A DNA stretch of 64,000 nucleotides from Candidatus Phycosocius bacilliformis. GTDB taxonomy: Bacteria > Pseudomonadota > Alphaproteobacteria > Caulobacterales > Aquidulcibacteraceae. This document shows positions 26,575-32,560 of this stretch, piece after piece. Location of the stretch: NCBI RefSeq assembly GCF_003112735.1, contig NZ_BFBR01000003.1, forward strand, positions 124,001 to 188,000, in the 5' to 3' direction. Each line of letters begins with the position of its first letter. The first letter of the stretch is position 1. The notes under the pieces were generated by a model. The model was given only the letters and a program-made list of their open reading frames with translations, did not search any database and had not been told where the DNA came from. A program made the translations under genes and the position numbers.

Positions 26575-27912
26575 TCAGGCCCCGGCGATGGTCATGGATG
26601 GCACAAGAAGGCTTGGACATTGCAATGATGACCGACCGTCATAATCATTGCCCGCAACCAAGCGCGCATAAATGTCGAGCATATTGCCAGCTACTGTAAT
26701 CTCATTGACGGGTCGGACAATCTCGCCATTCTCAAACCAGAGCCCTGACACCCCGACCGAATAATCCCCGGTATTGGGGTTGAAGCTCGGGGACAATGTC
26801 TCCACCACGCGCAAACCGGTGCCAGCCTCTTTCTGCAGGCCCGCCACATCAAGGCGACCGGGCAGCACCCGCACATTCGACGAGCTAATGCCAGGTGACC
26901 CGCCTGGATTGAGACTGGCATGGCCCGTAGAGGTCAGTCCCAATTGCCGCGCGCTGGATTGGTTGAGGAGCCAAGTCTGCAGCACACCATCGGTGACCAG
27001 ATTGCGCGCCGCAACCGGCAGCCCCTCGCCATCGAAAGGATGCGATGACCAACCACCCTGCTCTAGGGGATCGTCGGTAATGGTAAAGCCTGGGGCAAAG
27101 ACTTGTTGGTGCAGTTTGTCGCGCAAAAACGACACACCACGGGCAATGGCAGCCCCCGAAATCGCCCCCAAGAAAAAGCCGATCAGCCGACTTGCAACCC
27201 GGTTTTCAAAAATCACCGGGGCTGTGCAACTCTCCAGCTTGGTCGCCCCCATACGGGCCAGCGTGCGTTCTGCCGCGCGTCGACCAATCGCGTCTGAGGC
27301 GCGCAGATCTTTCACAAAGCGGCTGGAATCACTATCCCAATCGCGCTCCTTATGGTCATCCTTTTCGGCCAATGTAGATAAGCCAACTCCCCATGACGTC
27401 CCGCGATAACCACCTCGGAACCCATTGCTGGCCCCGTAAAAGACCTGGCTGGCTCCCCATTCAGCACCAGCGCCACCTGAATTCGTGATGCCAGGAATGG
27501 CCAGCGCAGCCGCTTCGCTTTCAAGCGCACGGGCTTCGAGACTGGCTATGTCAGGCTCGGTCTCATCCCACAGCGACAGGTCGACTGGATCACGTGCGAG
27601 CTCGTTAGGCTCAGGCAAGCCGCACCATGGGTCTTCTGCGGCTGCTTTGGCCATCGCCACCACCCGCTCGGCCAAACTATCCAAGGCCGCGAGACTGAAA
27701 TCAGACGTCGATGCCCCTGCCTGCTTCTTGCCAATCAGAACCCGAAGGCCAGCCGACCGGCTCTCCTCACTCTCAACGGCTTCCAAATGGCCAAGACGGA
27801 CAGAAACCGACAAGCTCTTGCGGTCAACGCAGGCCGCATCAGCCCCTTCAGCTCCAAGGGCTTTGGCACGAGACAATAGCCGATCGACGGCTGCTTCTAA
27901 ATGTTCACTCAT
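26575..27912 (-). CDS. pmbA: TldD/PmbA-family metalloprotease component (PmbA/TldE)
   Basis: PmbA (TldE) pairs with TldD to form a protease that processes modified peptides and degrades unfolded small proteins. The 445-residue length is normal. Family landmarks include Val-Ile-Phe-Glu-Asn-Arg-Val-Ala-Ser-Arg-Leu, His-Pro-Phe-Asp-Gly-Glu-Gly and the C-terminal Gly-Leu-Trp-Phe-Glu-Asn-Gly-Glu-Ile. In this pair the catalytic zinc motif sits in TldD, so PmbA itself lacks His-Glu-x-x-x-His, consistent with what is seen. tldD is not in the window. Confidence 0.95.
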   Translation of the reverse strand: MSEHLEAAVDRLLSRAKALGAEGADAACVDRKSLSVSVRLGHLEAVESEESRSAGLRVLIGKKQAGASTSDFSLAALDSLAERVVAMAKAAAEDPWCGLPEPNELARDPVDLSLWDETEPDIASLEARALESEAAALAIPGITNSGGAGAEWGASQVFYGASNGFRGGYRGTSWGVGLSTLAEKDDHKERDWDSDSSRFVKDLRASDAIGRRAAERTLARMGATKLESCTAPVIFENRVASRLIGFFLGAISGAAIARGVSFLRDKLHQQVFAPGFTITDDPLEQGGWSSHPFDGEGLPVAARNLVTDGVLQTWLLNQSSARQLGLTSTGHASLNPGGSPGISSSNVRVLPGRLDVAGLQKEAGTGLRVVETLSPSFNPNTGDYSVGVSGLWFENGEIVRPVNEITVAGNMLDIYARLVAGNDYDGRSSLQCPSLLVPSMTIAGA

Positions 27913-28161
27913 AGCTCACTTCTAGAGCGCGTTTCGTCCAAAGCGAAGCCACTTGCGCACTCAGCCCTGCGTGAATCCAGTGACACCGCGAGGCCAGGGA
28001 CCAGGGATCTCCTTGATTAATTCATGGCTCATCGGCCCCACTGAGGCCGGTTTATCTGGCTGACAATCTTAGTCTGAGCAGGGCTGGCAAAATCCAGTCT
28101 GCATCTTGTAAGATTCCAATCCCAGTTTCAAAGCCTTGTCATCCGTGGGACACAACACGCC

Positions 28162-29841
28162 TTGAGCACCCCTAAAGATCAGAATTTCTTTGATTGCAGC
28201 CTGTTGGCACCCGATGGCCGTATTCTGCAAGATGAGGCGGGTTGGCTTGGCAATCTTTCCCATGAGGTCCGGCTGAACTTGTGCCGGATGGCGGGCCAAT
28301 CCCCTTCTGAAACGAGCTTTGATCTGGTGGAGAGCTCGGGCAATCAGATCTTTCCGGTCGCCATGGCCCAAACAGAAGCAGCCAGCCATTGGGCGATCCC
28401 ACACGCTCGAACAGCCAGGCAAATTGATCCAAGCACAATCTGGGTTTGCCGCCTATCACCCAGTGCGGTCCAGGGTCGACTGGCCCATTTCGCCCAAGCA
28501 TTCGGCTTACCGCCTGCGGTTGGACGGGTCCTGCATGCCCTCTATGTGCATTGCGACGTCAAGAAAGCCGCCCAGATTGCTGGCGTGAGTTTCCATACCG
28601 CGCGGGATTATTTGCAGCAGGCCCGACAGGTGACATGGACGCCTAATCTAGCCCGACTGATCACTTGGTCGGCACTTGGGACTTTGGAAACAGTTGCCCG
28701 CGGGGAAAGTGATCACCCGGCTGGTGCGCTCTTTTCTCTTTCTGCCCGCCAGCGTGACTTGGCTGCCCGGATCGCCGACGGTGCCAGCCGCAGCCAAGCC
28801 GCAGCAGAGCTCGGGATTTCCTATGCAGTTGCCAAAAAGGAATTGGCCGAAATTTACGTCGCGACCGGGGTCAATAATGCCATTGGCTTGGCCAAGGTTC
28901 TGGCAGAATTGCGCAGCTTGGCGATGGCCACAGGCTTGGGTAAGGCTGACGACCCATATCCTCCCCCGCCAAGCCGCACGCTGATAGCGACCGACAAGAC
29001 GGGTCGAAAAATTGTCGCCAGTGATTATGGCCCCCTCGGCGGCAAACCAGTACTGGTCCTCCATAATGGGATGAATTGCCGTGGTGTGGACCGTGCGCTG
29101 GTGGCAGCTTTGCAGAATGCGGGATATCGCCCGATTTCACCAGATCGGCCAGGCTATGGTGACACCGATCCAGCCCCGCCAACCATCCTTGGGGCTGACT
29201 ACTACAAACTCTGCGCGGCCGATCTCATATGCTTGTGCGCCCAGATGGGCTGGGACAGATTGGATGTCATCGCCCATGGACCAACCCCTCTTGTGCTGAC
29301 TTTACTCGAAGAAGCACCGACGCTGGTGCAAGCGGCTGTGGTGGACGCCCCAGAGCCAGATTCAGGTTATGGGGCTGCCGCCCAAGGCATGATCCCAGCT
29401 ATGAAGCGGCATTTTTTTAAGCGGCCTTGGGCGGTGGCTTCAGTTGCGCGCATTCTCACCAATTTGGCCAGTCATGCCCGTCTTGCGACATTGATGCGTG
29501 AATGGACCGCCAACAGTCCCGCTGACCGAGTGGCGATGGAAAACCCAGCTCTTTTGATGGACTTTTACCGCAAGATTCTGCCATTCCGCAGTGGCCAGAT
29601 CGACGGGTTTGTGCGCGAACAAGTCCTTCAAGCAACACTTGGCCCACCCAAAACCAGCTTGCGCGGGGCCGGCGTAACCTTGCTGATCGGCAAGACGGAC
29701 TTCATGCATGATGGGGCAGAAACCCGTGACTATTGGCAAGCTCTTCTACCTGAGGCGCGCATTCACCTGATTGAGGATGCTGGCCGCTTCATTTCCTATT
29801 CCCATCCAGATCGGGTGGTTGAGGCTTTGCTGGCGGCATAG
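28162..29841 (+). CDS. PAS-like/double-HTH regulator fused to a catalytically dead hydrolase fold
   Basis: The 559-residue protein has four parts. Residues about 1-105 look like a divergent PAS sensor. Two LuxR-type helix-turn-helix units follow: 115-155 (Phe-Gly-Leu-Pro-Pro-Ala-Val then Ala-Gly-Val-Ser-Phe-His-Thr-Ala-Arg) and 192-250 (Leu-Ser-Ala-Arg-Gln-Arg-Asp-Leu then Leu-Gly-Ile-Ser-Tyr-Ala-Val-Ala-Lys). Residues about 275-559 have an alpha/beta-hydrolase fold, with the start His301-Asn-Gly303. The nucleophile elbow reads Ala371-His-Gly373-Pro-Thr, so the Ser is Gly; the catalytic His position reads Gly541-Arg542-Phe, so the His is Arg; an Asp (513) remains. A ligand-sensing, non-enzymatic hydrolase domain controlling DNA binding is inferred. 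The start is a TTG at 28162; the first ATG is 28288. Confidence 0.85.
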   Translation: MSTPKDQNFFDCSLLAPDGRILQDEAGWLGNLSHEVRLNLCRMAGQSPSETSFDLVESSGNQIFPVAMAQTEAASHWAIPHARTARQIDPSTIWVCRLSPSAVQGRLAHFAQAFGLPPAVGRVLHALYVHCDVKKAAQIAGVSFHTARDYLQQARQVTWTPNLARLITWSALGTLETVARGESDHPAGALFSLSARQRDLAARIADGASRSQAAAELGISYAVAKKELAEIYVATGVNNAIGLAKVLAELRSLAMATGLGKADDPYPPPPSRTLIATDKTGRKIVASDYGPLGGKPVLVLHNGMNCRGVDRALVAALQNAGYRPISPDRPGYGDTDPAPPTILGADYYKLCAADLICLCAQMGWDRLDVIAHGPTPLVLTLLEEAPTLVQAAVVDAPEPDSGYGAAAQGMIPAMKRHFFKRPWAVASVARILTNLASHARLATLMREWTANSPADRVAMENPALLMDFYRKILPFRSGQIDGFVREQVLQATLGPPKTSLRGAGVTLLIGKTDFMHDGAETRDYWQALLPEARIHLIEDAGRFISYSHPDRVVEALLAA

Positions 29842-29885: not shown

Positions 29886-30752
29886 ATGCTCGCGGTGACA
29901 AATGGACATGACGGTTTGACACACGTACTTTCTGATCCAGTCAAATTGGGTTCGGCTCGAAAGACTGGATTTGGCGATAGGCTATTGGCTGCAACGGTTT
30001 TTGCGCTGTGCTTAACTGGGCTAACCAGCCCAGTCCGTGCCCATGTCGTCGAATATGAAGTCCAAAAACCTGAAGGCGCGCCAGATGGTCTTTGGATGCG
30101 CAGCTATCGAACGTGTGAGATCGTCTCACGCGGCGGGGCCCCCGATGCCAAACTGGTCTGTGGTTACCCGCTCGGCTGGAAGCTGACTGATCGCAGCGGC
30201 AAAGTCCTGTTTCCGAACGAGGGTTTTATCCCCTATCCAGCCACTTGGGCTTTTTCCACCGATGTTGGCGTGATCGATATGGGGCCTGAGCTTTCGGTCC
30301 TCAACTTGACCACATGGACTCACGTGGAATTGGTGTTTGACCGCTTGGAAGCAGTGCCAGCGGCCCTTGGGTTTGAGCTTTTGGCTTGGATTTGGACAAA
30401 AGATCGAGCAGCGGCAGTGGTCATGAACAATGGCCAGCTTTTGCAGCTGCACACCCCGGCCGATTTTGCGACCGCCGAAGCCAATACAGACACGCGATGT
30501 CGGCGGATTGGTATGATTGCAGCACTCGATCTGGGTAATCTGAAGCATCGCCATTGGCATGCCCTCCGGCGCCTGCCGCGCTCTCAGTCTGCCTCCGGGT
30601 CTGGGACATGCCCGGCTGAAGCAAGAGAGATTATTGCAGGACAGGATGACGCGGGCTGGCGCTGGCTTGACCCCGCCACATTATTGCCCCGCGATGAGAC
30701 GGTGTATGCCTCACCGAAAGCAATTTTATCCCAAGCGATCACTAACCCCTGA
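29886..30752 (+). CDS. Exported protein of unknown function
   Basis: The 288-residue protein has a hydrophobic signal segment at 32-52 (Leu-Leu-Ala-Ala-Thr-Val-Phe-Ala, cleavage after Val-Arg-Ala), set behind an unusually long polar N-terminus, so the true start may be further in. The mature part begins His-Val-Val-Glu-Tyr-Glu-Val and has four Cys (in Thr-Cys-Glu, Val-Cys-Gly, Arg-Cys-Arg and Thr-Cys-Pro), perhaps two disulfides. It lies 44 bp after the PAS/HTH/hydrolase gene on the same strand and could be cotranscribed. No family recognised. Confidence 0.7.
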   Translation: MLAVTNGHDGLTHVLSDPVKLGSARKTGFGDRLLAATVFALCLTGLTSPVRAHVVEYEVQKPEGAPDGLWMRSYRTCEIVSRGGAPDAKLVCGYPLGWKLTDRSGKVLFPNEGFIPYPATWAFSTDVGVIDMGPELSVLNLTTWTHVELVFDRLEAVPAALGFELLAWIWTKDRAAAVVMNNGQLLQLHTPADFATAEANTDTRCRRIGMIAALDLGNLKHRHWHALRRLPRSQSASGSGTCPAEAREIIAGQDDAGWRWLDPATLLPRDETVYASPKAILSQAITNP

Positions 30753-31089
30753 AGCATTGAGCATGCCGTCCAGCAGGTCCTCACATGGCATTGAGGTGAG
30801 CCAATCAATCATGAAGCCAATAATGATGTCCAAAGTGTCCGGACCATGGCTACGACTGGGCTGGAACATTGTCCATCGCGTGCCCAAGTTCGTGCGAGCA
30901 GGCCCAAAAGCCGCATGAGGCGCTCTGGCCAACATGGCAGATGACCATATCGGCGTCCAAGGTGATATCCTGACGTTGAAATCCCCACCAACAGGCGCTG
31001 ACCCACCTCTTGTCTTGCCAAGAGCGATGTGCGGAGGTCAGCCTCTGCAAGCGCAGCGAAATTGACCCCTTTGGTCTCAGAGCCTTGGC
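30753..31089. other. 337-bp gap with a short frame encoding His-Glu-Leu-Gly-His
   Basis: No gene is supported. On the minus strand the reading frame of the upstream gene (stop 31090-31092) continues open after its TGA to a TAG near 30850, and that stretch encodes Cys-x-x-His-Glu-Leu-Gly-His, a zinc-peptidase-like motif. There is no good start codon or ribosome site, so chance or gene remnant are both possible. The rest of the gap is featureless to me. Confidence 0.35.
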
Positions 31090-31530
31090 TCAGCTGACAT
31101 TGCAGGCGCGTTGGCGGGAGATGATTTGCTGATAAGCGCGATCTGCCTCTGCTGCGGTTTTGAACGGCATAAAGTGACTGGCTTGACGCGATGAGAAGGT
31201 CTCCATCTCACCGGCTTGAATGCAGGTCTGCTCATTCCGACACGTGATCTTGAGAATGAAGAAGCCCGCCTCTTCGCTTGGCGCGGCAACATGCACATCC
31301 TTCAGCGCAAGCTTCCACCGCCCCCACACAGCATTACGGCCAAAGCTCAGGTCCAGAATGCCATTCTCAAGGGTGGCCTGATGATAGGGTACAAGCCCAT
31401 CTAGCCGCAGGGCTTCAGCACAGGCCAAGGTGCGCTCTTCGGCTTGTGTTGCTGCCAAAGTGCTGCTGGGGACAACCACCAACAGACACACTCCGGCCAT
31501 CCATCGCTGAACCATATGTCGACTGATCAT
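31090..31530 (-). CDS. Small exported protein, unknown function
   Basis: A 146-residue protein with a signal peptide (Trp-Met-Ala-Gly-Val-Cys-Leu-Leu-Val-Val-Val, cleavage near Thr-Leu-Ala-Ala at about 27). The mature domain is short with four Cys (two near the middle: Ile-Thr-Cys-Arg-Asn-Glu-Gln-Thr-Cys). AGGAGGAT lies 7 nt before ATG 31530, fixing the start. It lies downstream of another exported protein gene, overlap avoided by this start, so they are probably an operon. Family not recognised. Confidence 0.72.
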   Translation of the reverse strand: MISRHMVQRWMAGVCLLVVVPSSTLAATQAEERTLACAEALRLDGLVPYHQATLENGILDLSFGRNAVWGRWKLALKDVHVAAPSEEAGFFILKITCRNEQTCIQAGEMETFSSRQASHFMPFKTAAEADRAYQQIISRQRACNVS

Positions 31531-31562
31531 GTCGGGTATCCTCCTGCTTCTAGGCGGGGCCC

Positions 31563-32339
31563 TCATGGCGGACTGGCTGCAGTCAGGGCATCGCCATGGG
31601 GAATGTCGCGCGGCTTTTGGCGATAATATGACTCCAGCACATAATAGAGTTCGCTGGGTTGGCTGTCGGGTCCCAAATGCTCAAGCATCACCGACCAAGT
31701 CGCATGATAGCGCAACAATGGCTCGGCCGTATCACTGGGCATTTCCGCCACTTGCACGCTTTCGGTACCCCTGACAGTGATGTCGCGTGCTTGGCCATAA
31801 AGAGGATTGCTGGCCCGCTGCCGCCCCTTCACGCCAGGTCCATAGGGGTCGGGCCCATTGAGCGGAATCAACGTCGTTTCAGGCGGCAAAGGCCGAAAAA
31901 GATCGGGGCCATCCTTCAGCATCTGGTCGATCAGAGCCACTGCGTCGGCATGCGCGCGTGTAAAAGCCCGGCTCTTGTCGCGCGTTTGGGCAGTCAAGGT
32001 CACCGAGCAATAATCCGCCTTGCCCTCAAACACATTAATGGTGATGGTGCCTTCAGGCAGAATACGCATCATGCGGATCAGATTGTGGCCGGGGATCGCA
32101 GTGGGCCAGGGCAGTGTTTCCTCGGCAGTGGGCTCGCGATAGCCGTCATTCTGGAGAAGCGCGCTGCGGCGCAAATCCTCCTGGCCACCACCGATCATCC
32201 AGGCTTCACAATGATTGGCATAGGCCTCTCGCGCGGCTTGCACATAGGCCGAATTGTCTGGCGGGGTTTGCGCCCCGGCCACACCCGCCATGCCCGACAA
32301 TCCCCCCAGCCAGATCGCATATTTCCGCACCGCTCTCAT
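31563..32339 (-). CDS. Exported protein, unknown function
   Basis: A 258-residue protein with a signal peptide ending Gly-Val-Ala-Gly-Ala (about 24). The mature part contains Asn-His-Cys-Glu-Ala-Trp-Met-Ile-Gly-Gly-Gly-Gln-Glu and later Tyr-Cys-Ser-Val-Thr-Leu. AAGGAA lies 8 nt before the ATG at 32339; the TTG directly before it (32342) is not needed. First gene of a minus-strand pair with the 146-residue exported protein, 221 bp from the divergent kup operon. Family not recognised. Confidence 0.78.
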   Translation of the reverse strand: MRAVRKYAIWLGGLSGMAGVAGAQTPPDNSAYVQAAREAYANHCEAWMIGGGQEDLRRSALLQNDGYREPTAEETLPWPTAIPGHNLIRMMRILPEGTITINVFEGKADYCSVTLTAQTRDKSRAFTRAHADAVALIDQMLKDGPDLFRPLPPETTLIPLNGPDPYGPGVKGRQRASNPLYGQARDITVRGTESVQVAEMPSDTAEPLLRYHATWSVMLEHLGPDSQPSELYYVLESYYRQKPRDIPHGDALTAASPP

Positions 32340-32560
32340 CAAGGTTCCTTGCGCGACATAGGCCCAAAATGGCCAAAGGCTATCGCCTTACCATGAGCTG
32401 TCATCGCCATTTGAGGGGTATTGGCTGGAAGAGGTGGGATTAGCATGTCCCGGCTTCCTTACCAGCGACTTTATGGTTTCTTTATTACCAGATCCCGATT
32501 TCACATGGAAGCTTTACGCGGTCCCATGGTCTGGCTCTCTGGCCGTTCCGGAGACCTTCA

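Follow-up and report, generated by a model that had tools for sequence, protein, structure and literature searches.

Transitions from enzyme to receptor are known from a few plant examples. The alpha/beta-hydrolase fold is also used in signalling by RsbQ, and among PAS/LOV-LuxR regulators, EL222 combines a flavin LOV domain with one helix-turn-helix (HTH) unit and has no hydrolase domain. In the gibberellin receptor GID1, the catalytic His has been lost, with Ser and Asp kept and used as ligand contacts (PMC3531792). The GID1 relatives KAI2 and D14, in which the hydrolase fold is likewise used in signalling, keep the triad (PMC3531792).

We analyzed a stretch of 64,000 nucleotides from Candidatus Phycosocius bacilliformis (contig NZ_BFBR01000003.1, positions 124,001 to 188,000; the window), which contains a gene whose product carries a PAS-like domain, two HTH units and a hydrolase fold. 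The features discussed here are listed below with positions in the window; relatives that share both HTH units are referred to as tandem-HTH members.

28162-29841, forward strand: regulator gene, 559 a.a., TTG start (orthologues start within two residues of this position)
28189-28455, forward strand: PAS-like N-terminal domain, residues 10-98, beta-beta-alpha-beta-beta-beta in the AF2 model
28495-28689, forward strand: first HTH unit (HTH1), residues 112-176, divergent LuxR-type HTH (AF2 helices 100-172; hhalign to HTH2)
28717-28929, forward strand: second HTH unit (HTH2), residues 186-256, LuxR/GerE-type HTH (GerE match; family profile against EL222)
28975-29838, forward strand: alpha/beta-hydrolase-fold domain, residues 272-559 (Pfam, AF2, Foldseek)
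29080-29082, forward strand: Arg307 on the oxyanion-side loop, invariant in 32/32 tandem-HTH members
29272-29286, forward strand: nucleophile elbow A371-H372-G373-P374-T375, in which G373 (29278-29280) replaces the nucleophile
29698-29700, forward strand: Asp513, the kept acid, present in 21/21 relatives carrying R542
29785-29787, forward strand: Arg542 replacing the catalytic His, Arg in 21/32 aligned tandem-HTH members
29886-30752, forward strand: predicted exported protein, rich in beta structure and without a Pfam match (a homologue adjoins the orthologous regulator in genome G176)

The C-terminal half of the regulator, described in the initial annotation as a recognisable alpha/beta-hydrolase, belongs to that superfamily by both fold and profile. 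Pfam Abhydrolase_1 matched residues 296-549 above the cut-off (E 2e-10), and the AF2 model of the 559 a.a. protein (built from 78 aligned sequences; pLDDT 90.8) displayed, in order, a PAS-like part, a linker helix and two HTH units, followed by an entire alpha/beta-hydrolase fold that carries a helical lid. Foldseek comparison of this model returned epoxide hydrolases, BphD and esterases, with TM scores of about 0.6-0.7 by target length. Residues 371-375 and 541-543 read as the annotation had claimed, with Gly at 373 and Arg at 542 in place of Ser and His, and the predicted structure places the first within the nucleophile elbow (strand 367-372, a turn, then helix 375-384) and the second in the loop of the catalytic His (G541-R542-F543, following strand 533-537). 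Consistent with this placement, independent phmmer alignments match residues 372/373 to the His-Asp in the elbow of epoxide hydrolases with solved structures. The window protein lacks two of the three catalytic residues: Gly373 stands where an active hydrolase has its elbow nucleophile (Ser, Cys or Asp) and Arg542 where it has its catalytic His, with the acid after strand beta-7 kept as Asp513. The annotation left open whether these substitutions are conserved among homologues, and both were found in all six close orthologues; given this recurrence (6/6), we rejected chance or sequencing error at 373/542.

In the original description of the N-terminal half, the PAS label is the weaker element: the predicted topology agrees with it, but Pfam PAS matches were weak and confined to 3/78 relatives, with none in the window protein itself. 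The two HTH units are on firmer ground. HTH1, which alone showed no clear family, is homologous to HTH2 (hhalign 98.6%, E 4.9e-16), and HTH2 matched GerE (E 0.0064 for the window fragment, 7e-5 for the orthologue L038), with its family profile matching the LuxR-type HTH of EL222 at 3.5e-10. In the Pfam comparison of the window protein, the hydrolase match lay above the cut-off and the HTH matches were weak, with GerE scoring 16.5 bits for the fragment against a cut-off of 23.5; nonetheless, GerE was matched at E <= 0.01 by 61 of the 78 relatives, which places the unit among the GerE/LuxR-type HTHs. Given HTH1 is a homologous repeat of HTH2, and HTH2 is of the GerE/EL222 type, two tandem LuxR-type units are supported, as first claimed. 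We found no inverted repeat suggestive of a palindromic operator in 27900-28180, and no convincing alignment between the upstream regions of the orthologues and that of the window.

Relatives came from profile searches covering the order (398 genomes) and the class (385 genomes), and from loci found by a contig scan with a three-orthologue alignment; as the genome searches scored few candidates per genome, absence from a genome is no proof. The contig scan found no locus with the single window protein as query and four with the three-orthologue alignment, one being that of G340 and two originating from Erythrobacteraceae MAGs. In a tree of the hydrolase domain with the catalytic columns removed, the 31 tandem-HTH proteins formed one clade (99% SH-aLRT), and the window protein fell in a six-member orthologue group (100%) within an 18-member subclade (99%).

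Two findings were named at the outset as speaking against a non-catalytic domain: homologues of the same architecture that keep Ser and His, and an intact triad elsewhere in the domain. The former were not seen in the tandem-HTH clade, where none of the 31 proteins with readable catalytic positions has a complete triad (0/31). Regarding the latter, an alternative conserved nucleophile was sought across the aligned tandem-HTH set and none was found, the only conserved Ser/Cys being S287 on strand beta-2. The catalytic positions instead read Gly(Ala/Thr/Asp)-Asp-Arg in 21 members (the Gly-Asp-Arg members), including the 6/6 close orthologues; Asp513 and Arg542 are invariant across these 21, and both are kept throughout the 18-member subclade of the window protein. 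In the remaining 11 members of the aligned set of 32 (10 against 21 in another set), both the acid at the Asp513 position and the His/Arg are lost, a split which largely follows the tree and hence does not reflect many independent events. As read from the alignment, these data fit an exchange of the Asp-His pair for an Asp-Arg pair in the tandem-HTH clade. Beyond the catalytic positions, H301, R307, R329, D354 and D455 are conserved in 32/32 members, and the conservation around what was once the active site speaks for a retained pocket.

Some members of the clade display features of their own. About ten (L024, L036, L030, L037, L047, L066 and others) carry Arg-Asp at the elbow, so that an Asp lies at or beside the nucleophile position, with acid and His lost. 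Members with an Asp at or beside that position number 11 in all; these may have some activity, though none has the His. Three divergent paralogues each were noted in genomes G038, G075 and G195, those in G038 and G075 being dispersed, and adjoining copies occur as L065/L040 (G185:C3:1841-5326) and L037/L061 (G195:C5:105069-110013). Several paralogues per genome would fit a receptor repertoire. One tandem-HTH gene, L049/L070 (G186:C1:950179-951452), is split over two frames near the elbow, which reflects either disruption of this copy or a mistake in the assembly.

Searching with single-HTH fusions, in which one LuxR-type HTH precedes the hydrolase fold, widened the sampling across the phylum and yielded a sister set of 82 proteins with readable positions, which branch apart from the tandem-HTH clade in the tree. 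Most have lost the nucleophile and/or the His: the nucleophile is replaced by Ala, Gly, Val, Thr, Met, Leu, Gln, Asn, His, Glu and others, and the His most often by Gln. A complete triad, with Ser, Cys or Asp as nucleophile, is present in 7/82, among them L106, L137, L139, L148 and L153 (Ser-Asp-His) and L138 (Cys-Asp-His), meaning these fusions span all stages from an intact triad to complete loss. The triad-keeping fusions look like the enzymatic starting state. L137, L139, L148 and L153 (from f189, a different family of the phylum), as well as L106, each have an intact Ser-Asp-His beside close relatives lacking Ser or His, and such groups possibly represent a natural series of enzyme-to-sensor stages. 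A further single-HTH clade (L069, L051, L053, L055, L050, L071 and L073) keeps Asp and His, with Leu, Met or Val as nucleophile.

Of the most similar hydrolases in which no HTH was aligned, 25/27 have an intact triad, and one of the two exceptions (L164, 642 a.a.) probably has an unaligned HTH. Given this proportion, catalytic loss goes with HTH fusion; taken with 0/31 in the tandem and 7/82 in the single-HTH proteins, it indicates that the HTH-fused enzyme domain has been repeatedly disarmed with its fold kept, bearing in mind that these are counts of sequences rather than of independent events and that the sample was drawn according to similarity with the query family. The recurrent catalytic loss in relatives from many bacteria suggests that an old enzyme became a small-molecule sensor.

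Catalytic residues were lost with the fold kept, the loss is conserved, and two HTH units are fused to the domain; the protein is therefore probably a transcription regulator of the one-component type that contains a receptor-like domain, much as originally supposed, and in which the non-catalytic hydrolase fold would act as a ligand (or conformational) sensor. Such a domain would sense its ligand, or a conformation, through the vestigial active-site pocket, where an Asp513-Arg542 pair would take the place of Asp-His and Gly373 that of the nucleophile. Ligand binding would then alter the binding of operator DNA by the tandem LuxR-type HTH units, one possible target being the adjacent exported-protein gene.

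The placement of a PAS-like domain ahead of the HTH units in the AF2 model, together with the match of the HTH profile to EL222, itself a PAS/LOV-HTH regulator, would also suit a protein in which the N-terminus senses the signal and the dead hydrolase serves as a structural or dimerisation module, or as a protein-interaction surface. We consider this division of labour unlikely, given that all 21 Gly-Asp-Arg members retain H301, R307, R329, D354, D513 and R542 without exception, whereas the PAS-like part contributes almost none of the invariant columns of the family. It is distinctly improbable that the domain is still enzymatic through an unusual catalytic set (e.g., His301/Asp354, or residue 306 as nucleophile), with catalysis coupled to regulation. 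In favour of such a set, H301 and D354 do not vary, 19/21 Gly-Asp-Arg members have Ser, Thr or Cys at position 306, and intact-triad relatives exist among the single-HTH fusions; however, conservation singles out no one nucleophilic residue, the other 11 tandem-HTH members have Gly at position 306, and neither the canonical nucleophile nor the His remains. Finally, a hydrolase half decaying without function in the manner of a pseudogene, with the HTH half alone of consequence, would suit the wide variation of catalytic residues among single-HTH relatives but is very improbable given that 31 tandem-HTH members, drawn from several families, have open frames of full length, that only one interrupted copy (G186) was seen, and that the Asp513-Arg542 pair is retained in 21/21 and R307 in 32/32.

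The regulator gene is flanked by a divergent pmbA-like gene and by the exported-protein gene (29886-30752), for which an operon with the regulator had been suggested. Homologues of the exported protein occur in 5/398 genomes of the order, the window's own included. In two of these five carriers, the gene lies beside an orthologous regulator, downstream on the same strand in the window and convergent in G176, and no such regulator was found in the stretches read from the other three. The operon arrangement is thus not conserved, as the genes are convergent in the only other genome having both side by side, and the adjacency suggests a functional link rather than a conserved operon. The model of the exported protein is beta-rich and of low confidence (pLDDT 69), and its fold gave no significant Foldseek match. 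Of the neighbours of tandem-HTH genes, 14/56 were scored as exported proteins, versus 20/109 of those of single-HTH genes, using a crude signal-peptide rule which misses the window's own exported protein. Three adjoining predicted exported-protein genes lie by the regulator (window 29886-32342), located at 29886-30752 on the forward strand and at 31090-31566 and 31563-32342 on the reverse strand. In five congeners, the nearest homologues of the flanking pmbA and kup genes do not lie side by side. A plasmid origin of the locus was rejected, there being no plasmid match, as was a phage origin, for which PHROGs returned a generic esterase match only.

We found no family or structure in Pfam, NCBIfam or the PDB that corresponds to the whole fusion, whether tandem- or single-HTH; the PDB matches listed each cover one part, and none spans HTH and hydrolase. 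Nor was an HTH-hydrolase fusion described in the open-access full texts searched. More broadly, the relatives may form a Pseudomonadota-wide family of small-molecule receptors, which would have arisen by fusion of an active hydrolase to a LuxR-type HTH followed by stepwise and repeated catalytic loss, the tandem-HTH clade having largely fixed Gly-Asp-Arg. On this account, for and against which we see the balance as roughly even, they would represent, in bacteria, one-component equivalents of the hydrolase-derived plant hormone receptors, with triad-bearing intermediates surviving. If true, they would constitute an unrecognised class of ligand-sensing regulators, members of which automatic annotation may call hydrolases, and a large HTH-fused bacterial family whose triads range from intact through half-lost to fully lost would make the order of events directly testable.

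Among known proteins, stand-alone epoxide hydrolases, BphD and esterases share the fold and core motifs of the C-terminal domain but have an intact triad and no HTH. RsbQ and D14/KAI2-type proteins are separate proteins with a complete triad, whereas the window protein has lost Ser and His and is fused to HTH units. The likeness to EL222 and other PAS/LOV-LuxR regulators lies in the combination of a PAS-like domain with a LuxR-type HTH. The single-HTH LuxR-hydrolase fusions likewise place a LuxR HTH ahead of a hydrolase fold with the triad mostly lost, and differ in carrying one HTH rather than two and in their substitutions. With GID1, the nearest parallel in function, the window protein shares an alpha/beta-hydrolase fold, turned receptor in GID1 and probably so here, and the loss of catalytic residues (PMC3531792); however, GID1 signals via protein partners and lacks a DNA-binding domain, while here both Ser and His are gone and the domain is HTH-fused. 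The L069-type single-HTH clade shows the opposite partial loss to that of GID1. The parallel with the gibberellin receptor drawn in the initial annotation therefore holds at the level of function and fails at that of residues, as GID1 retains Ser and Asp (PMC3531792) and the window protein retains the acid alone, with Gly as nucleophile.
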